From Candidatus Nitrosotenuis aquarius (GTDB lineage Archaea > Thermoproteota > Nitrososphaeria > Nitrososphaerales > Nitrosopumilaceae), in assembly GCF_002787055.1 (NCBI RefSeq), contig NZ_CP024808.1, positions 1,142,328 through 1,206,327 on the forward strand: DNA of 64,000 nucleotides. The letters run 5' to 3'. Position 1 is the stretch's first letter; the number at the start of each line of letters is the position of its first letter. This document shows positions 17,846-31,907 of the stretch, piece by piece. The notes beneath the pieces were generated by a model. It was not told the origin of the DNA. It searched no databases and saw only the letters and a list, made by a program, of their open reading frames with translations. A program made the position numbers and the translations under genes.

Positions 17846-20800
17846 TTAGGAGCCATAGTCCGAGGTCAGCGTGATCGGCTTGGCAAACAATGTCCTGTAC
17901 TTTATCTTGATTTGAGTGTCCTCTGAGGCATGCGCTTCAGGTACAATGCTATCCGATTCTAGTGATACACTCCAGACTCCCTCGATTGGGTCAACTGAGG
18001 TGATGCTGAATCTCTCCAGCGGGCTGTTTTGGCCGGAATATCTTACTCTGAAGATTTGGCCGTCAATCTCGATGCTTTCTGCATTTCCTCTCTTGCCTAG
18101 AGTGGAGTGTTTTACCATGCAAGAGTCAGAATCTCCAATGACACACTTGCCGTCTGGTGATACTACTCTATAATGCAGATTTGGATTTGCATCTGATGAG
18201 TATAGCAATCCAGCTCTTGCCACTAGCTTTTGCTGCTCATCTACTATAGACTGGACATTTATCACATCAGATATGGAATATGACTTTGTAGACTTGAATG
18301 TGTTGACTGTTGTGGATCCAGTGTCAATCTCTTTGTCGTAGAGGTTTAGTCTTGCCTTGATGTCATAGCTTGTCTGTGAATCTAGTTCCGGTACGTTCCA
18401 TGCAAGGTCAATTGCAGTGATATCTTTAAAGACATATTCGCTTGATGTGAATTCTACCTTGCCATTTACTAATAACGACACTGAGCCAAAGAGTGGCTTG
18501 CCTTCATTGTATACATATGCAGATGGTCTAAGAGTTGATCCTTGTGACTTTGCAATTGGTGTGTCTAGCTCTAGTCTTGCATCTAGTGGATAGGTTGGCT
18601 TGACGCCTAGATAGTATTTTTCTGATGCTTGGATCTTTTCTTCCTGATTCACTACATGTATCCAGTAGATTATAGCTGGAGTTTGCAGGAATGTTGTTGG
18701 CAATTCTGCAGATACAATGTACGTGTTTGCAACACCAGCTAGTGGTGCAACATCCATCTTTACTGCCGCATAGTCGGTATAGTTGTTTCCGCCTGTGACT
18801 ACACGTAGTTCTGCACGTCTAAGCTCGGTTTGTGAGTCAATTATGCCTGTTACTGTGACTTTTTCGTTGCCTTGGATGTACTGGTTTACTGCAGTGGATG
18901 GCACTGGCTTGCCAGATTCTATCTGGAATTTAACATCAAAGATGTTTGGTCTGCCCTCTTCGACGACAGTATCCACACGTATTTTATCCAAGTCAGTCAT
19001 TGGGTTGATGATTATTGTGTCAGAACAACCATAGATGTTTACCAAGTATGATGTAGATGTTGCAATTCTTCCGTTGACCTGCTCTGCGGTAATTACAAAG
19101 TATTTGAGGTCTCTATTGATTGGTGCTTCATAGACATATCTGCTTACTTGGAGTATCTTGTTGTGTTCTAGGTATGGCTGGTCCTTTGCTAGTGTTGCTG
19201 AATATACCTCTCTGTCTGGGGTTCTTATCTTGACATGTGGTGGTGGGGCTTCAGAGCCATAGACACCTGCGATGATTCTGACCATGTTTCTATCACAAAC
19301 ATCGTATTGTGCTTGGTAGAGTACAATTGGGTTTGCAACTGTTCCTGGAGCACCAACTGTGCCTATAGATCCACCACTTGTTCCTCCTCCACCTCCGCTT
19401 CCACCTGCATCTCCTCCCGATGTACTTGCTCCACTTGATGTGCTTGCCTTTGTCTTTGATGATAATGCAAATTCGCTAAAGTGTGGAGTTGATAGGATTA
19501 CATCACAGCTGTTCGAGTTTACTGAAGATGGTGTTGTAATCGATATTCCAGTTTGTATCCAAGTGCTAGTTGCTCTGTTCAGAGTGTATGCAGTCATAAT
19601 TGGACATCCATTTGCATCAGATTCTACTGTGCTTGATTTTGCAACTCTCAATGTGAGTGTTGGTTTTGTAGCAAAATTGTTTTCAACACTCCAGTTGAAT
19701 CCTTTATTGCTTATTTCGTATTGATAGCTAACATCCACAAATAGATTAATGCGATCATTTGAAATTCCTGAGGTTCCAAGTGTACTTGGAATTGTTGATG
19801 CAGTTTCTACTACAAACCAATCGTTTTTGGCATTTCCAATTGAAGATGATCCATCAGCTGCATCAACTGAAAGCTGGACCAGTCCACCATAGGATGGTAA
19901 AAGAGATGTTTCTACCGGTACTACTACTGCCTGACCAGGTACGAAACCAGTCAATGGTGGAGTTGCCACAAATTGTGAAGATGTCCCTGAGGGTGCTGTT
20001 ACCATACTTGGAATTACTGATGTAGTAAATGGTGAGGTTGAAACGGTGTAATTTTGTACGCCCAAAGAATTGATGATTGTTTGGCCTGATGTCTGTGATG
20101 TAAATGAGGTACTGAGCCTAATTGATGCTTGTTTTGTGATTGCGTCACTTAGTTGACTAGTTGCATTTCCTACAGAGACAATTGGTGGCAGTTGATTTAC
20201 TGCGTTAATGGTTGTAGTAGATGAGCCATTAACTATGGTTGCACTAAATGTGCTAGTCCAAGCAGTGTAGGTAGTACTGTTTAACATTGGAGCGGTTGTA
20301 ATTACAGTTGGCGCCAATTGAGATAGTGAAGAGCTTTGTAGTGCTACTCTGAATACAGATGTTCCATGAATGTTTGTTGCATGTACTTCGTGCATGGTAC
20401 TGTTACCAAGCACATTGTATGCCGAGGGTATTATAGTCATGGTTATGTTATAGGTGCCAAGAGGTGCTTGCGAGAATCCAACTCTACCTACGGTAGAATC
20501 AAGATCATTTGAGTCATTGTCTGTTACAATGAATGCTGAGCTTCCACCATTTGGATTTGGAGATATTCTGTATGTTGCTCCGCCGATTAGTGCATTTGTT
20601 GTATTTCTTGCCTCAATTTCCCATCCTCCCTTAAATGCAATTGTATCTTTGAAGCCAAGTTTTTCTGTTAATGATTTGACTGTAGTTCTTGTTATAGTGT
20701 CTGTGAATCCTAGGTTTTCTGTTAGTCGCTTGGTTGCTGTCCTTGCGGTGTTGTCAGTAAAGCCGAGGTTCTCTGAGAGTGTCTTGGTTGCTGTCCTTGC

Positions 20801-23800
20801 GGTGTTGTCTGTGAATCCTAGGTTTTCTGAGAGGATCTTAGTTGGGGTGCGAGCTGTGTTGTCTGTGAATCCTAGGTTTTCTGTTAGTCGCTTGGTTGCT
20901 GTCCTTGCGGTGTTGTCAGTAAAGCCGAGGTTCTCTGAGAGTGTCTTGGTTGCTGTCCTTGCGGTGTTGTCTGTGAATCCTAGGTTTTCTGAGAGGATCT
21001 TAGTTGGGGTGCGAGCTGTGTTGTCTGTGAATCCTAGGTTTTCTGTTAGTCGCTTGGTTGCTGTCCTTGCGGTGTTGTCAGTAAAGCCGAGGTTCTCTGA
21101 GAGTGTCTTGGTTGCTGTCCTTGCGGTGTTGTCTGTGAATCCTAGGTTTTCTGAGAGGATCTTAGTTGGGGTGCGAGCTGTGTTGTCTGTGAATCCTAGG
21201 TTTTCTGTTAGTCGCTTGGTTTGTGTTTTTCCTGCAATGTCTTGGAAGCCAAGTTTTTCGGAGAGGGTCTTAGTTGGAGTTTTTACTATGGTGTCTTTGA
21301 AGCCAAGTTTTTCTGACAATAGCACTAGTTTTGTTTTTATTCGTTGAGTGTTGTCTTTGAGGCCAAGTTTTTCGGAGAGGGTCTTAGTTGGAGTTTTTAC
21401 TATGGTGTCTTTGAAGCCAAGTTTTTCGGAGAGGGTCTTACTTTGTGTTTTTCCTGCAATGTCTTTGAGGCCAAGTTTTTCGGAGAGGGTCTTAGTTGGA
21501 GTTTTTACTATGGTGTCTTTGAAGCCAAGTTTTTCGGAGAGAGATTTTGTCAAAGTCGTTCTTATAGTGTCTTTGAAACCTAAATTCTCTGATAAAGCAG
21601 CGTATTTTGGCTGATTCCTAAAAGCAAGAGAGTACAGATCAAATGTAGATGTTTGAGTATTAGTTGTGATACTTCCATCCCCATAGGTCGTGGCATTTAG
21701 ATTGAAGTTGATTCTAAATCCAGACAGAACGTTTACACTGTTTAGTCGTATGCCTAAGATATTTGCGTTAGAATCACCTGCATCATAGTTTGTATATAGG
21801 GACATCCATCTTCCAGTACCAGAATACGTAGCATTCGATTGTTGTGTTGCAGTACATTTAGGAGAACAGACTACGAATTCAACGTTTGTTCCAGTTCCAT
21901 CGGTTTCCCATGCAAGAATACCTCTATTCAAAGTCGGCATCCAAGCAAAGTCTGCAACTCTTGTACCTGCATTATCAACCGCATTGTCATGTCCAGCAAG
22001 ACTTGTTGGAATTGCAGTCCACGCTCGACCATCCCAATATGCCGTAGCCAAGTCAGAACCGGTATATTGCAACACGGCCATTACATCATCAGAATTCGGA
22101 TCTGCCTTTAGTGTAACCCATTGTAAGTCTAATGTGCCACTGAGAGGATCAAAGCCAGAGTGAACTGACCATGTGGATCCGTTCCATGTAGCATTGACTA
22201 TGTTTCCACTAGCACCAGAACCTGCAAGAACTATGGCATTTCCACCATCAGACTCGTACTCTACTGCCTGGCCTTCTCCCCTTGTAGCTGGATCAGTTGC
22301 AGCGTTTGTTATTTCTTGTTGATTGCCCCAGCTGTTTCCATTCCACACCCATGCATTTACATCATCATTAGTATTATCAAATCCCACCAAAGTTAACTCC
22401 TCACTGTTTGATATAGGATCTCTTGCTACATCAAGCCAGGTATATTGAACATCTGCTGCCTCTGTAGAATCATTGATGTATTGTTCTGAACCCCATGTTG
22501 TAGATCCTGCAGGAAGAATCCTATAGGCCAGATCCCTTGATGCATTAGTACTTACTAATGAATAAACGAGGATGGCATCTCCAGTGGCACTCTCAAATGC
22601 AAAATCAAATTTCTTTGCTGACACAGATGTTGCGGCTCCGATGTTATTTGTCACAGACCAGTTACTGGATGTTGTACAGTTTCCGTCACAAACATATGCA
22701 TCCAAGTTATCATCCGCGCTAGAAGTAATTAGTACTAGCCTGTTTGCAGCAGGTGAATATTTGAGCTCCACAAATTCAATATTAGATCCAGTAGTGGGAA
22801 GCTCTACCTCATTTCCCCATGTTCCTTTATTATCCGAAGTCCATGCCCTGATTTTGGGAATTGCTCTGGAAGATGCTGCACTTGATCCATATGCAATAAA
22901 TGCGTCGTCGTTTGATATTATGGGTGGATCAGCTGCGACGTACCAGTTTCTTGCCTCTGTGAATGCGACATTTTCTTGTTTGATTTCCATTTTGCCTAAT
23001 GCATATAATCTTGGGAATTCAAGCGGTATGGAATATTCGTACGAAACACTGGTCTTATTTTGATCTAGGTTTCTAGTCCAGGCGATTATCTTGGTACCGT
23101 TGATTTCTTGTACTAGTCCATCAGTAGTTACATTCAGTTGTGCTGGAACAAATTCACGAATGGTTACTTGTTGGCCCCCAACAAACGATTCAATGTCGAT
23201 TTTCACTGCAAAAGAGTTGGGATTTGTGATTGGATCGATTTTGCTTTGTGCAGTTCGGATTATGTCATATTCATAGAGTGATTTTACCGCAAAGTCAGTC
23301 TCAAATGTAGTTATTCCAGATGGCGTGGTTGCTGAGATTTCTATTTGGTGTGTTCCTTCTAAGGATGTTTGATATTTAGCATCATAAACTCCGCAATCTT
23401 CATTTGGAATAATTCCATCATGACTGGTTAGTGTTTGATTGTTCAGTAATGGATCAGTTACTATCAATGAAATATTTGCGTCACATACTGGATGTCCTTC
23501 GTTATCGAGTACAACAATTTCCAAATTGGCGATTTCACCAGGCTTGTAAATGCTCTTTTTGGTGTTTAGTGATACAAGACCCCAGGCAAATTCGCCATAC
23601 ACTACAAACTGTTGATCATCTACCTGAAGAATTGTTGCTATTTTGTATACTCCAGGAGTTATGATTTGTTCAGGATTTAGTTTAATGTTGAATTTGCCAT
23701 CTCTGAGTTTTTCGTATTTTGTACTAGTCTGTATGAGCTGTCCCTGTGGTGAATAGATCTGGGTTGTAATGGTGCTGTTGTCTTGCTGCCATATTTCATA

Positions 23801-26800
23801 CTGGACTTCTTTTACTGTTTCGGTAGTGTTGAGATATTCATTGAGATCATCTGTTCTTTCTGGCAAAACAGAATCTGTGACATTTTGGTTTATGATTGTC
23901 AAGTCATTTGAGATTTCCTTGATTTCATCCTTAAGATCCGATACCACGGTGTTGTTTTGTTTTGTTTGTACTAGTTTTTCACGCAGTTGTTTGAGTTTTT
24001 GTTTTGTCTGTACAATTTGTTCCAATACCGCGTCTTTTTCAGTTTGTTCTGCGTCGGCGAATGGCAAAAATGCCGCAATCAAGTATCCGATTGGGTCTAT
24101 TGCAGTATTGTTTTGACTTGACACAGCATCAGTAGAGTTTGCTTGTTGTTCTACTGAGGTTGTAATGTCATTTGATGTTGAATTTGTTTGCGGCAATACA
24201 ATGACGTTATTTGTGGGGTTGGTGTCAATCTGCTCACTGTTATCTGTTTCTTGTTCTTCAATAAGCTCAGCTAGTGTGTTTTCAAGTTCTGCTATCTGCA
24301 TAAGCAGGATTTCAGATTCATCATAGTATTCTAGCTGGAATTCAACTTCCTCGTTGATTAGATAACTTGGTTTTGTTTGTGTAAGTGTTGGATCTGCAAT
24401 AATGTCTACGCTGGTCTTGTTCGTATCCAGCATGATATCGGTTTGATTGACATCTTGGATTCCAGTAACATTGTATAACTTGACATAGTCTTCTGTGATG
24501 TCAATTGATTCCAGAAGATCAAGGTTGTGGTTTTGTGCAAATCTGATGTTGTACATCAGTCTGATCTCATCAGCGCTTAGTGCTCTTGGATAGACTGTTG
24601 TAGTGTCTATTATTCCTGCAAATTTGTTTTCCAGTTTTGGCTCTGAACGCAGTGTAGACTGATACGCGCCTATTATAACTTGAGAATCAGAGTCAGCGAC
24701 TCCACCCACTCTTGGTTGAATTCTATGTTCCGTTATCTCAAAGATGTCATCAAGAATTTTGTTGTTTTGTTTTGTGCCGTTCACGTACAGCATAATTTCT
24801 GTTCCATTGATAACTGCGGCCAGATGACTGGTGCTTTGAATTTCATCCAAACCAAAAATGTCAGTCCATTTGAAACCATCAAAGACGGAGAATTTTGCGA
24901 CATGTGTTGGCTCCAGAATGTTGTTTATGGATAGTACAAATGATTTTTCTTTTGATACTATGGTCATTTCGTCTGATGCTGCAGAATAATCCGGATCAAC
25001 CCATGCAGTTATGGTTAACTCATTTGTGACATTCACTTGTGGAGCTGTGATTATTTGTGTAGCGTTGGCGTTCAGTGTTCCATTGATGTTTAGTGTTCCA
25101 TTAAACGAAGTGTTGTTGAGCAGATTAATTGGAGCTAATTCAATTGTAGGGATTGTTGCATTGATTATTGGGTTTGTGAGTTTGGTAGCTAGCATTTGAT
25201 TATAAATTTGGAAGATTTGTTCTTCTGTTAGATGTTTATCATAGATTTGCAGTTCATCTATCTTGCCTGAGAATAATGCATTTCCAGTATCTACTGTTCT
25301 TGAGTCAAGAGAAGCGCCCACTATGATGTCAGCATTCGAATCTGGAATTTGTACAAACATTTCTTCTACCAATCCAGTAGTCGTGTTTAGTGACTTGATT
25401 TTTTCTGATTTTGAGAGCGTTCCATTTGTGAATATGGAAATGTCGGAGCCGTTAAATGAAGCACCTATGTGCGACCAACCGCTTCCCAACTTGTCATTTC
25501 CTTCTATGCTATGCCATTTTATGCCATCAAATATAGAAAATGATGCTATTTGTTGTGGATCAAGTATGTTGTTTAGTGTAAATTTGAATTGTCCTTCTTT
25601 TGAGATTATGGTAAATGTAGACGAGCCAGAAGTATAGTCTGGCTTGATCCATGCTGTGATAGAAAGTGATGTGGAGTTTGTTTCAGTCGTGTTTGATTTG
25701 ACAAATCCTCCGTCTAGGATGATGCCTGTTTCATTTACAAAAACGTCTCCAATCAGTTCGGAGCCATTAACAGAATCCCAAATCGGCGTTGTAGGTATGA
25801 TTGTGATATCAAATACATCATCTAGGTTCAGATTTTCGGCTAGTATGATGGTCTGAGTGGAGTTGGTGGCTGGGATGGTCTGAGTGGAGTTGGTGGCTGG
25901 GATGGTCTGAGTGGAGTTGGTGGCTGGGATGGTCTGAGTGGAGTTGGTGGCTGGGATGGTCTGAGTGGAGTTGGTGGCTGGGATGGTCTGAGTGTCTAAT
26001 TCAAGAACAGTCTCAATATTTTCAATGGCAGGCTGAGCATCAGGAATTAGTTCTAGCGGCATAACAGGTTCCAGTGTAGTCGACTCTTCAGTGTCTATAG
26101 AGGCCGGTTCTTGCGGACCAAACGAGGTGGAGGATGATCCCATAGCCTCAAGAGAATCTTGAGCCTCCTGGGCATACGCATAGTAGCTATCAGATATTGA
26201 TAGAGGAATAGTAACGGTAGACGAGAGCAGAATTACCACAAATGCAAGACAGAGAATCTGTCTGTAACTTTGAATTTTGATTTTATGATCTTCAGATCTA
26301 ATAATTAGATAACAGGCCGAAAGGGCAAAAATAAACAACACCGGTGATGTCGGATGTAGTGTTTTTTGGATTAGCTCCAACTGCGGTCCGATAATAGATA
26401 GATCATCAATATCGACAGATATGAGATTGTAAAACGAGGGTTGCAATGCAGCAACATGATTAGTTAAAGCTAATGAAATACCCCATAGAGACTCTATGTT
26501 GGTATCACGGTATACACCCATACCATCATCAGATTGCATGGGTGCATCATCAAAGGATAGATCAATTGGACCAGTATACTGTGATATACCAATAACATTG
26601 TCCAGTTGATCCTTTCTCTTACCAAAGATTCGATCAAGCAATGCAAGATTGTTTTCTTTTTTGATTAGGTGTAGTGATGTTTCACCATCTTTGGTATTTG
26701 TCATCGTCATTTTCTCCGTTACAAAAATTGTTTTTGTGATTTGAGGTTTTTTGACAATTGAAAGTGTTACTTCGTTAAATCTAAACTTAGTAGGCTTTTC

Positions 26801-26968
26801 TTCCAGGTTGATCATTGTGTTGATTGTCGGTTTTTGTGTTGAAATCACTGAATCAGAAATTTCAGTTTTTTCTTGATTAGTTATTTCAATAGAGGAATAG
26901 GCCGGGTTAAGGAATTGTATTGCAAACATTGCAAGTAATGCAGCTACCACAAGTTTTTGTCTAGTCAA
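17846..26968 (-). CDS. Giant exported/membrane repeat protein with LamG, macroglobulin-like and 18-aa repeats (3040 aa)
   Basis: The longest gene here. The N-terminus has a signal-like helix (residues 5-23). Two more hydrophobic helices at about 208-226 and 236-256 are followed by YYAYAQEAQ, which looks like a second export boundary. Then come a TQTIPATNS repeat (325-374), two LamG/concanavalin-like domains (about 430-590 and 646-812), a coiled coil (880-1040), a macroglobulin MG2-like segment with KSIYKPGE (about 1073-1230), a beta-propeller-like region (about 1356-1740), 18 units of an 18-aa repeat with LSENLGFTDN (about 1788-2106), a Gly/Ser linker (2509-2540) and Ig-like domains to the end. 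It probably sits on the cell surface. Function unknown; domain names come from reading motifs. Confidence 0.8.
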   Translation of the reverse strand: MTRQKLVVAALLAMFAIQFLNPAYSSIEITNQEKTEISDSVISTQKPTINTMINLEEKPTKFRFNEVTLSIVKKPQITKTIFVTEKMTMTNTKDGETSLHLIKKENNLALLDRIFGKRKDQLDNVIGISQYTGPIDLSFDDAPMQSDDGMGVYRDTNIESLWGISLALTNHVAALQPSFYNLISVDIDDLSIIGPQLELIQKTLHPTSPVLFIFALSACYLIIRSEDHKIKIQSYRQILCLAFVVILLSSTVTIPLSISDSYYAYAQEAQDSLEAMGSSSTSFGPQEPASIDTEESTTLEPVMPLELIPDAQPAIENIETVLELDTQTIPATNSTQTIPATNSTQTIPATNSTQTIPATNSTQTIPATNSTQTIILAENLNLDDVFDITIIPTTPIWDSVNGSELIGDVFVNETGIILDGGFVKSNTTETNSTSLSITAWIKPDYTSGSSTFTIISKEGQFKFTLNNILDPQQIASFSIFDGIKWHSIEGNDKLGSGWSHIGASFNGSDISIFTNGTLSKSEKIKSLNTTTGLVEEMFVQIPDSNADIIVGASLDSRTVDTGNALFSGKIDELQIYDKHLTEEQIFQIYNQMLATKLTNPIINATIPTIELAPINLLNNTSFNGTLNINGTLNANATQIITAPQVNVTNELTITAWVDPDYSAASDEMTIVSKEKSFVLSINNILEPTHVAKFSVFDGFKWTDIFGLDEIQSTSHLAAVINGTEIMLYVNGTKQNNKILDDIFEITEHRIQPRVGGVADSDSQVIIGAYQSTLRSEPKLENKFAGIIDTTTVYPRALSADEIRLMYNIRFAQNHNLDLLESIDITEDYVKLYNVTGIQDVNQTDIMLDTNKTSVDIIADPTLTQTKPSYLINEEVEFQLEYYDESEILLMQIAELENTLAELIEEQETDNSEQIDTNPTNNVIVLPQTNSTSNDITTSVEQQANSTDAVSSQNNTAIDPIGYLIAAFLPFADAEQTEKDAVLEQIVQTKQKLKQLREKLVQTKQNNTVVSDLKDEIKEISNDLTIINQNVTDSVLPERTDDLNEYLNTTETVKEVQYEIWQQDNSTITTQIYSPQGQLIQTSTKYEKLRDGKFNIKLNPEQIITPGVYKIATILQVDDQQFVVYGEFAWGLVSLNTKKSIYKPGEIANLEIVVLDNEGHPVCDANISLIVTDPLLNNQTLTSHDGIIPNEDCGVYDAKYQTSLEGTHQIEISATTPSGITTFETDFAVKSLYEYDIIRTAQSKIDPITNPNSFAVKIDIESFVGGQQVTIREFVPAQLNVTTDGLVQEINGTKIIAWTRNLDQNKTSVSYEYSIPLEFPRLYALGKMEIKQENVAFTEARNWYVAADPPIISNDDAFIAYGSSAASSRAIPKIRAWTSDNKGTWGNEVELPTTGSNIEFVELKYSPAANRLVLITSSADDNLDAYVCDGNCTTSSNWSVTNNIGAATSVSAKKFDFAFESATGDAILVYSLVSTNASRDLAYRILPAGSTTWGSEQYINDSTEAADVQYTWLDVARDPISNSEELTLVGFDNTNDDVNAWVWNGNSWGNQQEITNAATDPATRGEGQAVEYESDGGNAIVLAGSGASGNIVNATWNGSTWSVHSGFDPLSGTLDLQWVTLKADPNSDDVMAVLQYTGSDLATAYWDGRAWTAIPTSLAGHDNAVDNAGTRVADFAWMPTLNRGILAWETDGTGTNVEFVVCSPKCTATQQSNATYSGTGRWMSLYTNYDAGDSNANILGIRLNSVNVLSGFRINFNLNATTYGDGSITTNTQTSTFDLYSLAFRNQPKYAALSENLGFKDTIRTTLTKSLSEKLGFKDTIVKTPTKTLSEKLGLKDIAGKTQSKTLSEKLGFKDTIVKTPTKTLSEKLGLKDNTQRIKTKLVLLSEKLGFKDTIVKTPTKTLSEKLGFQDIAGKTQTKRLTENLGFTDNTARTPTKILSENLGFTDNTARTATKTLSENLGFTDNTARTATKRLTENLGFTDNTARTPTKILSENLGFTDNTARTATKTLSENLGFTDNTARTATKRLTENLGFTDNTARTPTKILSENLGFTDNTARTATKTLSENLGFTDNTARTATKRLTENLGFTDTITRTTVKSLTEKLGFKDTIAFKGGWEIEARNTTNALIGGATYRISPNPNGGSSAFIVTDNDSNDLDSTVGRVGFSQAPLGTYNITMTIIPSAYNVLGNSTMHEVHATNIHGTSVFRVALQSSSLSQLAPTVITTAPMLNSTTYTAWTSTFSATIVNGSSTTTINAVNQLPPIVSVGNATSQLSDAITKQASIRLSTSFTSQTSGQTIINSLGVQNYTVSTSPFTTSVIPSMVTAPSGTSSQFVATPPLTGFVPGQAVVVPVETSLLPSYGGLVQLSVDAADGSSSIGNAKNDWFVVETASTIPSTLGTSGISNDRINLFVDVSYQYEISNKGFNWSVENNFATKPTLTLRVAKSSTVESDANGCPIMTAYTLNRATSTWIQTGISITTPSSVNSNSCDVILSTPHFSEFALSSKTKASTSSGASTSGGDAGGSGGGGGTSGGSIGTVGAPGTVANPIVLYQAQYDVCDRNMVRIIAGVYGSEAPPPHVKIRTPDREVYSATLAKDQPYLEHNKILQVSRYVYEAPINRDLKYFVITAEQVNGRIATSTSYLVNIYGCSDTIIINPMTDLDKIRVDTVVEEGRPNIFDVKFQIESGKPVPSTAVNQYIQGNEKVTVTGIIDSQTELRRAELRVVTGGNNYTDYAAVKMDVAPLAGVANTYIVSAELPTTFLQTPAIIYWIHVVNQEEKIQASEKYYLGVKPTYPLDARLELDTPIAKSQGSTLRPSAYVYNEGKPLFGSVSLLVNGKVEFTSSEYVFKDITAIDLAWNVPELDSQTSYDIKARLNLYDKEIDTGSTTVNTFKSTKSYSISDVINVQSIVDEQQKLVARAGLLYSSDANPNLHYRVVSPDGKCVIGDSDSCMVKHSTLGKRGNAESIEIDGQIFRVRYSGQNSPLERFSITSVDPIEGVWSVSLESDSIVPEAHASEDTQIKIKYRTLFAKPITLTSDYGS
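20650..21605. repeat. 54-bp coding repeats with a 162-bp higher-order period
   Basis: Eighteen units of about 54 bp encode the 18-aa repeat LSEKLGFKDTIVKTPTKT and variants. In the part nearest the gene 3' end, three successive units (endings PTKI, ATKT, ATKR) recur as a block every 162 bp; the anchor GTTAGTCGCT is found at 20721, 20883, 21045 and 21207. The blocks look identical at DNA level, whereas the units near 21230-21600 are more diverged. Confidence 0.92.
25847..25994. repeat. 27-bp tandem repeat (five copies plus 13 bp)
   Basis: Identical 27-bp units start at 25847, 25874, 25901, 25928 and 25955, with a partial unit to 25994. They encode the Thr/Asn-rich nonapeptide TQTIPATNS, a probable glycosylated stalk because each unit has an N-x-S/T sequon (NST). 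Confidence 0.95.
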
Positions 26969-27249: not shown

Positions 27250-28026
27250 TTAAAATGTCAATGATCTTACTTTGGTTTTAATTTTTAGTTTCATAAGATT
27301 TTTTTCTAGTTGTTTCGTATCGCCAGATGAAAATACTCGTAGTGAGTTTTTTGTTGATGCAGAAAAAAATTTGTTATTTACAAGCTCAGTGGCCACCTGT
27401 ATAGATGGATCCAGAAACATTATTTTTGGAAATAATTTTTTCAAGATAGGCAACAAGAATGGGAGATGTGTGCTGGATAATGTAACAACATCGATGCTAT
27501 GTTGTAAGATTTTCTTTGTAAGTGTTTGATCAATTATTGCTTTACAATATTTTTTATCAGAAAGGAATTTGCCTGATTCTACAAGATCAATAAGCTTGCT
27601 TGCATCAATCATAATAACACAGATTTTTTTTACGAGATTTTTTTGTATGAATTTTTTTGTTTCCTTGCTTGTTATTATGGCCCTACTGCCCAATATTGCA
27701 ATAGAGTTTGTTTTTGTTTTATTTTGTGCATCAGCAATAGGGGGCAACACCCCCATGATGGTCTTATCATCAAACAAGCTAGGAAATAACAATGTAGGTG
27801 TGTTTGAACCAATCACAATTACACTTGGATTGAATTTTTTCTTTAGTGATTTTATAGTGTGTTTTATTATCTTCAATAGTTCGGCATTTGTTTTTGTTCC
27901 ATATGGATAGTTTTTTTGATCAGCAAAATAGATGACATCTACTTTGGTTGTTTTCATAATTGCTCTAACAATTGATAACGATCCTAGGCCAGAATCAAAG
28001 ACAACTACTTTCCTCATGACACCCAC
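27250..28026 (-). CDS. Glutamate/aspartate racemase-family protein lacking both catalytic cysteines
   Basis: A 258-residue homolog of MurI/RacE. The substrate-site motifs FDSGLGSLS (10-18) and NYPYGTK (39-45) are kept. The two cysteines that exchange the alpha proton are replaced by serine: S74 in GSNTPT (family ACNTAT) and S185 in SSTHLP (family GCTHYP). The fold is expected intact, but ordinary racemisation is not. Archaea of this group have no peptidoglycan, so D-glutamate for a wall is not the obvious need. The gene is more AT-rich and lysine-rich than its neighbours, which may mean transfer. A methionine three residues in could be the true start. Confidence 0.8.
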   Translation of the reverse strand: MGVMRKVVVFDSGLGSLSIVRAIMKTTKVDVIYFADQKNYPYGTKTNAELLKIIKHTIKSLKKKFNPSVIVIGSNTPTLLFPSLFDDKTIMGVLPPIADAQNKTKTNSIAILGSRAIITSKETKKFIQKNLVKKICVIMIDASKLIDLVESGKFLSDKKYCKAIIDQTLTKKILQHSIDVVTLSSTHLPFLLPILKKLFPKIMFLDPSIQVATELVNNKFFSASTKNSLRVFSSGDTKQLEKNLMKLKIKTKVRSLTF

Positions 28027-28123
28027 TACCTCCCTGAGGATTTACATTTTGTTAGCTAAATTTACTCTATAGTTGATTATTCTGCACTACCCCAATTAAG
28101 AATTAAATCCTAAACGGTTCCGC

Positions 28124-28774
28124 ATGACCGGCTTCGAGAAAAATTGGGCACGTCAGGACACTGCAAGTGTGGCAGACAGACTTCGAGACTCTGTTAAACC
28201 ACAGGGTGCATTGAAACCAAGAATTCAAACCGCAGTCAACAAACTGCAATTGCAAATCTCAAAAATGGATTCAATGTTAAACAAATTGCACGAACGTGAC
28301 GCTCAACTATTCAAACGAATCGTAGCTGCAATGCAACAGCATGACACCAGCGCAAGTCGTGTCTTATCAAACGAACTAGCTGAAATACGCAAAGTCACAA
28401 AGATGCTAGGCAATGCAAGAATGGCACTAGAGCAAGTACAGTTGCGCCTGACCACCATCCATGACCTGGGTGATGCTATGGTAGCAATAGGTCCAGCAAT
28501 GTCGACAATGAAGGGCCTCAAGTCCTCACTAGGACGCTTTATGCCAGAAGCAGATGCAGAGCTAAACTCTATGACACAAACACTCAGCGGTCTGATGATG
28601 GACTCACTGGCAGGCGATGCATTCAATGTCGGATCTGACATTTCAAGCGAAGAAACTGAAAAGATCTTGCAGGAAGCATCAGCAGTTGCTGAACAGCAAA
28701 TTGGCGACAGATTCCCATCTGTTCCTTCACCATCTGGACTTTCGTCCCAATCAAGCTCCTCTACTTACGAGTAG
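28124..28774 (+). CDS. cdvB: CdvB-family ESCRT-III-like cell division protein (paralog 1)
   Basis: A 216-residue Snf7/ESCRT-III protein. The basic N-terminal helices (KPQGALKPRIQTAVNKLQLQ) and the ELAEIRKVTKMLG segment are typical of thaumarchaeal CdvB. CdvB polymers constrict the membrane during division with CdvA and the ATPase CdvC. A C-terminal stretch SSEETEKILQEASAVAEQQ resembles the MIM-bearing helix that meets CdvC, followed by a Ser/Pro-rich tail. No CdvA or CdvC gene is adjacent. A paralog lies at 54639-55280. The gene is divergent from the racemase homolog. Confidence 0.93.
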   Translation: MTGFEKNWARQDTASVADRLRDSVKPQGALKPRIQTAVNKLQLQISKMDSMLNKLHERDAQLFKRIVAAMQQHDTSASRVLSNELAEIRKVTKMLGNARMALEQVQLRLTTIHDLGDAMVAIGPAMSTMKGLKSSLGRFMPEADAELNSMTQTLSGLMMDSLAGDAFNVGSDISSEETEKILQEASAVAEQQIGDRFPSVPSPSGLSSQSSSSTYE

Positions 28775-31142: not shown

Positions 31143-31907
31143 CTAGTTCTTTTTGGCCTTTCTGTATCCATGGCTAAATGTCTTATCATAGAGCTTGGAA
31201 TATTCATACGACTTGGGCTGTATCACATCACCAATTATAACAATTGCAGTTCGCGTAATTTTTTGCGCCCAGACCTTTTTGGTTATGTCTTCTAGTGTTC
31301 CTGTAATGATTTTTTGGTCCGGCCAGCTTGCCCTGTACACAACGGCCGCAGGCGTAGTTTTTGGATAACCCCCCTTGATTGCCTCCTTTACTATGTCAGA
31401 TAGCAAATGCACACTCAGATAGAAAATCATGGTGGACTTGTGCTTGGCCAGTTCAGATATTTGCTCTTCCTTTGGCACCTTGGTGCGCTTTTCTGCGCGT
31501 GTTATAATCATAGTTTGAGTAACACCCGGCAGTGTCAGCTGCAATCCCAAAGCGGCAGATGAGGCCAAAAACGACGTCACGCCTGGAATCACAACACACT
31601 CTATTCCTTCTTTTTGCAAATTGTCTGTCTGCTCGCGAATGGCACCATAAATTGCAGGATCGCCGTCGTGGAGTCGTATTGTAAGTTTTTTTTGGATGGC
31701 GCCTTGCTTTAGGATCTCAAATATTTCTTCGCGCACTAGGCCAGCTGCGTCGTGCATCTTTGCCTTTTTGCAAATCTTCAGTATTGCATCCGGAATCAAA
31801 GAACCAGAATACACCACAATGTCTGCCCTTTGCAGTAATTTTTTTGCCTTGACTGTTATGAGATCGGGGTCGCCTGGGCCGCACCCAACAAAGTAAACCC
31901 TAGACAC
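31143..31907 (-). CDS. cobM: Precorrin-4 / cobalt-precorrin-4 C11-methyltransferase
   Basis: A 254-residue SAM-dependent tetrapyrrole methylase of corrin-ring synthesis. The family start VYFVGCGPGDPDLITVKA and the following VYSGSLIP identify CobM/CbiF. The second signature, RLHDGDPAIYGA with a proline loop, is intact. It overlaps cobI by 8 nt at its start, so the two are translated together. Members of this phylum are known cobalamin makers, and the anaerobic (cobalt-early) pathway is expected. Confidence 0.93.
   Translation of the reverse strand: MSRVYFVGCGPGDPDLITVKAKKLLQRADIVVYSGSLIPDAILKICKKAKMHDAAGLVREEIFEILKQGAIQKKLTIRLHDGDPAIYGAIREQTDNLQKEGIECVVIPGVTSFLASSAALGLQLTLPGVTQTMIITRAEKRTKVPKEEQISELAKHKSTMIFYLSVHLLSDIVKEAIKGGYPKTTPAAVVYRASWPDQKIITGTLEDITKKVWAQKITRTAIVIIGDVIQPKSYEYSKLYDKTFSHGYRKAKKN

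Follow-up and report, generated by a model that had tools for sequence, protein, structure and literature searches.

A minus-strand gene of the window (the whole stretch of 64,000 nucleotides analysed here) encodes a protein with the fold of the glutamate racemase MurI but with serines at the positions of the two catalytic cysteines. It is a member of a distinct Ser/Ser subfamily, and such proteins are likely not ordinary racemases but either catalyse a one-sided reaction of a glutamate-like acid or act as ligand sensors. Comparison of the sequences suggests that this subfamily, which ammonia-oxidising archaea (AOA) have kept and which at least two bacteria also carry, is an ancient derivative of the MurI-type glutamate racemases, and that both cysteines were exchanged for serines once, long ago, and have never reverted.

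Gene and protein fold

Direct translation of positions 27250-28026 on the minus strand gives an open frame of 258 codons, and this reading sets the residue numbers used throughout. The ATG at 28017, three codons inside the GTG, is likely the true start and is preferred because the aligned homologues start there (Table 1). The translation places FDSGLGS at residues 10-16, NYPYG at 39-43, GSNTPT at 73-78 and SSTHLP at 184-189, and all four motif positions given in the original prediction, which had left the strand unstated, are thus exact on the minus strand. The gene is single-copy in the host genome, one contig of 1.70 Mb, and the host is regarded as an AOA because the genome contains an archaeal AmoA gene.

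Table 1. Positions of the Ser/Ser gene, its active-site codons and neighbouring features in the window
Feature	Position	Strand	Remarks
MurI-fold Ser/Ser gene	27250..28017	-	255 aa from ATG; 258 aa from GTG at 28026
His187 codon	27466..27468	-	invariant in AOA; 14/14 MurI
Ser185 codon AGC, place of second catalytic Cys	27472..27474	-	alignments, codon comparison
Glu150 codon	27577..27579	-	invariant in AOA; 14/14 MurI
Ser74 codon TCA, place of first catalytic Cys	27805..27807	-	alignments, codon comparison
Pro41-Tyr42-Gly43 codons, substrate loop	27898..27906	-	136/136 AOA; 13-14 of 14 MurI
Asp11 codon	27994..27996	-	partner of first catalytic position; 136/136 AOA, 14/14 MurI
Intergenic gap of divergent pair	28018..28123	.	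putative shared promoter region
CdvB/ESCRT-III-like gene	28124..28774	+	conserved divergent neighbour
CbiF-like tetrapyrrole methylase	31143..31907	-	usual other-side neighbour in most AOA; context only

The glutamate-racemase fold proposed earlier is borne out by several comparisons. The NCBIfam glutamate racemase model TIGR00067 matches the protein at 3e-30 with 105 bits, which is under the equivalog cut-off of 146.65, but six Nitrososphaeraceae homologues exceed this cut-off. All matches obtained with phmmer against PDB sequences (23/23) are glutamate racemases. An AlphaFold model built with 27 homologues as input has a mean pLDDT of 94.9 and a pTM of 0.90, and MurI structures make up all ten of its top fold matches in the PDB (TM 0.83-0.88), which identifies the two-domain MurI fold.

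Active site and conservation of the two serines

Profile alignment to solved MurI chains places Ser74 and Ser185, without gaps, in the columns of the catalytic cysteines (ACNTA and GCTHY), and the same placement is obtained with 14 varied MurI sequences, every one of which is Cys/Cys. The replacement of both proton-shuttle cysteines, as originally read from the motifs, therefore stands. Each serine is found in 136 of the 136 distinct AOA homologues of at least 200 aa, a set that spans the four AmoA-bearing families and consists of related rows rather than independent events; this count also answers the suggestion that conservation of Ser/Ser be checked in related archaea. Among these homologues is a genome that we take to be Nitrosopumilus maritimus SCM1, which carries ASNTPS and SSTHLP and hence is Ser/Ser. 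A replacement cysteine was sought in the same 136 sequences and none is conserved, the commonest being C161 (76 % of rows); takeover by another cysteine, the alignment check proposed with the original prediction, is ruled out, since C161 alone is common and it is not conserved.

Asp11, Ser12, Pro41, Tyr42, Gly43, Thr76, Glu150, Thr186 and His187 are each present in 136/136 AOA sequences and, together with Gly13, Gly15, Tyr33, Asp36, Asp179 and Leu183, are among the columns conserved in both the AOA and the MurI sets, so that the glutamate pocket (Asp-Ser, Pro-Tyr-Gly, Thr76, Glu150, Thr186-His187) is retained in the alignments. The columns that differ from the 14 MurI are G16S, C74S, A77P (mostly), C185S and Y/F188L. 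In these alignments, the substitutions thus cluster at the two catalytic sites and at residues close to them, with the remaining pocket intact. Of the two substrate motifs first described as kept, NYPYG has its Pro-Tyr-Gly preserved, but FDSGLGS is not fully kept, the second glycine of the MurI DSGxGG being Ser16 throughout the Ser/Ser family.

Throughout the AOA sequences, Ser74 is encoded by TCN and Ser185 by AGY. Each of these codon boxes lies one base from the cysteine codons TGY, through different changes, and this one-step distance therefore points to two separate mutations before the four families split; since then, neither serine has switched codon box or reverted to cysteine. Pairwise dN/dS has a median of 0.18 and a maximum of 0.51 (66 pairs, 80-98.5 % identical), and the family is under purifying selection. 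Decay was considered as an explanation, and pseudogenes do exist, yet the intact copies show purifying selection; the earlier argument against random decay is strengthened by the invariance of both serines, the fixed codon classes and a dN/dS of about 0.18.

Distribution in archaea and bacteria

The gene is carried by 32 of 61 relatives, all 32 in the four AmoA-bearing families, while both the gene and AmoA are missing from 18 genomes that belong to other families of the order; across the order as a whole, it is present in 176 of 300 genomes. The sole non-AOA matches in a phylum-wide scan were a Cys/Cys MurI (genome G444) and a weak superfamily member with Ala/Cys (G360), and of the loci examined with the independent TIGR00067 model, none from the AOA families encoded a Cys/Cys MurI. 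Within the phylum sample, the Ser/Ser gene is restricted to AOA, a restriction of this gene that is already reported in the relevant passages of PMC12363236. Scans for viral carriers found none.

The Ser/Ser gene is broken in G172, G190 and G152, which hold pseudogenes, and reduced to a short remnant in G175, in each case at the ancestral place, and no match at all was found in G017 and G009. The gene is cleanly absent from G017, which is presumably Cenarchaeum symbiosum, with the CdvB-like gene, CbiF, CbiL and CbiT still present. The gene is considered dispensable, because several AOA lack it or have pseudogenes. Contig 3 of G237 holds a second, frameshifted Ser/Ser copy, likewise beside a CdvB-like gene, with an intact copy elsewhere in the same genome.

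A search of a plasmid collection returned proteins of Phyllobacterium zundukense (36.7 % identical, 6e-33) and Fusobacterium vincentii (37.8 % identical, 1e-23), both much nearer to the AOA family than MurI is. Both carry ASNAPS and SSTHLP, hence Ser/Ser, and their Ser74/Ser185 codons (TCC/AGC in P. zundukense and TCA/AGT in F. vincentii) fall in the same boxes as those of AOA. Of the 39 rows of a tree, 25 were Ser/Ser, and all 25 formed one clade apart from the Cys/Cys MurI with support of 100/99, which was 98/96 after the motif columns had been removed; one clade with Ser74 in TCN and Ser185 in AGY thus unites the AOA proteins with the bacterial ones. In this unrooted tree the two bacterial proteins branch within the AOA sequences, but support for that placement is weak (82/75).

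In addition, F. vincentii possesses a normal MurI of the Cys/Cys type (ACNTAS, GCTHYP), and because of this separate enzyme its Ser/Ser protein need not serve cell-wall synthesis. The proposed link to a wall-less host consequently holds in part: the host is an archaeon of the AmoA-bearing group, but the two bacteria that share the Ser/Ser state bear peptidoglycan, F. vincentii alongside its MurI. In Phyllobacterium (locus L235, 9817-10878), the Ser/Ser gene is convergent with a PLP serine/threonine-dehydratase-like gene about 33 bases away, and F. vincentii locus L252 (1419-5169) contains PxpA-, PxpB- and PxpC-like genes and a transporter, named from sequence by eye.

Genomic neighbourhood

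The Ser/Ser gene is paired with a divergent CdvB-like gene across a gap of 84-134 bp (median 105; 138 distinct loci). The product of this neighbour matches Snf7 only weakly, and its designation as CdvB-like is tentative. A predicted protein of 3040 aa (17846-26968, minus strand), which has laminin-G-like domains and in which near-identical 'LSENLGFTDNTARTATK' repeats form a block, lies directly downstream of the Ser/Ser gene, at the place that CbiF holds in most other AOA. Comparison of neighbourhoods yielded no functional link between the Ser/Ser gene and CbiF, and no clear pathway was seen among the neighbouring genes. No match to CbiJ (precorrin-6 reductase) reached the cut-off in any of 12 genomes, G000 among them, though AOA have CbiF, CbiL and CbiT, and the CbiJ step in AOA is a possible unassigned step.

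Probable function

With its two-domain cleft and a pocket of the glutamate type retained (Asp11, Ser12, Pro41-Tyr42-Gly43, Thr76, Glu150, Thr186 and His187), the protein would most likely bind a glutamate-like dicarboxylate, but it has hydroxyls in the place of the proton-shuttle thiols, Ser74 on the Asp11 side and Ser185 on the Glu150/His187 side. Asp11, Glu150 and His187 could polarise Ser74 and Ser185, and reversible removal of the C-alpha proton from both sides at MurI rates would be unlikely with serines. Because both proton-shuttle thiols are hydroxyls, the protein is presumably not an ordinary two-base glutamate racemase, and the original prediction to this effect agrees with the loss of both thiols in every AOA sequence of the set. 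An elimination or other lyase-type step at one activated side may be assisted by a Ser185-His187-Glu150 relay, or alternatively the protein may serve in ligand binding, the invariance of the catalytic helpers slightly favouring lyase-type chemistry over sensing. The AOA protein probably performs other chemistry than glutamate racemisation, although slow racemisation by an Asp- or His-activated hydroxyl base might still occur.

The same pattern of loss and retention, with both catalytic thiols gone and the binding residues kept, as well as the conserved divergent pairing with the CdvB-like gene at 138 loci, is consistent with a catalytically dead MurI kept purely for ligand binding or regulation, such as glutamate sensing. 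This is a possible reading that we hold with reservation, as Asp11, Glu150 and His187, which are catalytic in MurI, are invariant too, and neither serine has drifted to Ala, Gly or Thr, changes that a binding-only role would tolerate. It is rather doubtful that the Ser/Ser clade constitutes an enzyme family in its own right, whose reaction would be new to the fold. In this proposal the family would have a single origin, be present in most AOA lineages and have been exchanged between archaea and bacteria, and Ser185, activated by His187/Glu150 and lying beside the oxyanion hole, would act on glutamate or a derived lactam such as 5-oxoproline, either as a base or as a nucleophile.

Towards a C-alpha proton, serine is far less basic than the thiol it replaces, and this counts against a working glutamate racemase with serine bases. 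Such an enzyme, which would give AOA access to D-glutamate as a source of carbon or nitrogen, would accord with the MurI fold and with the remaining pocket residues, all of which are kept, and the relevant passages of PMC12363236 credit the SCM1 protein with the necessary catalytic sites and propose D-Glu use. We nevertheless judge it improbable, given that 136/136 sequences lack both thiols, among them that of the genome assigned above to SCM1, and that the published claim, as set out in those passages, rests on a predicted structure and annotation.

Still harder to maintain is a partnership with a HyuA-type ATP-dependent lactam hydrolase acting on 5-oxoproline or a hydantoin. In two Nitrososphaeraceae genera, a HyuA-type gene follows the Ser/Ser gene immediately and in the same orientation, and F. 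vincentii has PxpABC-like genes some 7 kb away from its Ser/Ser gene, but other genes, apparently including an rRNA operon, intervene there, and HyuA is present in 14/27 gene-bearing versus 5/8 gene-lacking near-complete AOA genomes; with no such co-occurrence, HyuA does not track the Ser/Ser gene and the link was rejected. A role in cobalamin synthesis, in which the protein would fill the missing CbiJ step beside CbiF and CbiL, has next to no likelihood and was likewise rejected: the gene adjoins CbiF in most AOA and CbiJ is without a match over the cut-off in 12/12 genomes searched (11 of them AOA), but the gene is convergent with CbiF and outside its operon, is not directly beside cbi genes in three Nitrososphaeraceae genomes examined, and has been lost (G017) or broken (G172, G190) in genomes whose CbiF, CbiL and CbiT are intact.

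Significance and comparison with known systems

AOA are very abundant in sea and soil. According to the relevant passages of PMC12363236 (mSystems 2025), they have a typical bacterial glutamate racemase, and the GLUR of N. maritimus SCM1, the strain modelled, has the necessary catalytic sites; the enzyme is used there to argue for D-glutamate uptake and for a large share of deep-sea racemase genes. The statement on catalytic residues misfits the sequence as to the two bases, because the genome matching SCM1 is Ser/Ser. The cysteine and serine passages of that paper make no mention of replaced catalytic residues, the word 'heterologous' does not appear in its text, and the passage with 'purified' concerns DNA. 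Searches confined to the open-access literature found no description of Ser/Ser members or of a MurI pseudoenzyme and no mention of Nmar_0060, the presumed SCM1 gene. The Ser/Ser finding therefore challenges a published functional claim, and the racemase reading of the AOA protein needs a test. Should the Ser/Ser protein prove unable to racemise glutamate, the conclusion on D-glutamate would have to be corrected, as would metagenome counts that rely on K01776. The Ser/Ser pair also offers a natural test of the chemistry open to the MurI fold in the absence of thiols.

The AOA GLUR of PMC12363236 (A9A551, N. maritimus SCM1) is almost certainly of the same family as the window protein, being, in the passages concerned, a single TIGR00067-type gene restricted to AOA, as is the Ser/Ser family; those passages present it as a typical bacterial racemase, and the Ser/Ser state is unreported in them. 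MurI and RacE enzymes (TIGR00067; B. subtilis RacE 1ZUW, B. anthracis 2GZM, L. monocytogenes 3IST) have the fold, the length and the pocket residues D11, S12, P41-Y42-G43, T76, E150, T186 and H187 in common with the window protein, but they keep both catalytic cysteines, whereas the window protein has serines in their place along with G16S, A77P and Y/F188L. Arylmalonate decarboxylase, of the same superfamily, has altered catalytic cysteines and lyase chemistry; unlike the window protein, it retains one cysteine, and its substrate pocket is not glutamate-like. The original statement that both cysteines are needed in known racemases was too strong, since the aspartate/glutamate racemases EcL-DER and MMP0739, of the same superfamily as the window protein, have threonine for one of them (review PMC8142540). 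This exchange makes EcL-DER one-way, and in another racemase family, the proline type, a Cys-to-Thr change turns an epimerase into a dehydratase (PMC8142540). EcL-DER and MMP0739 thus resemble the window protein in having a hydroxyl residue for a catalytic cysteine, but they retain the other cysteine, whereas in the window protein both are replaced.
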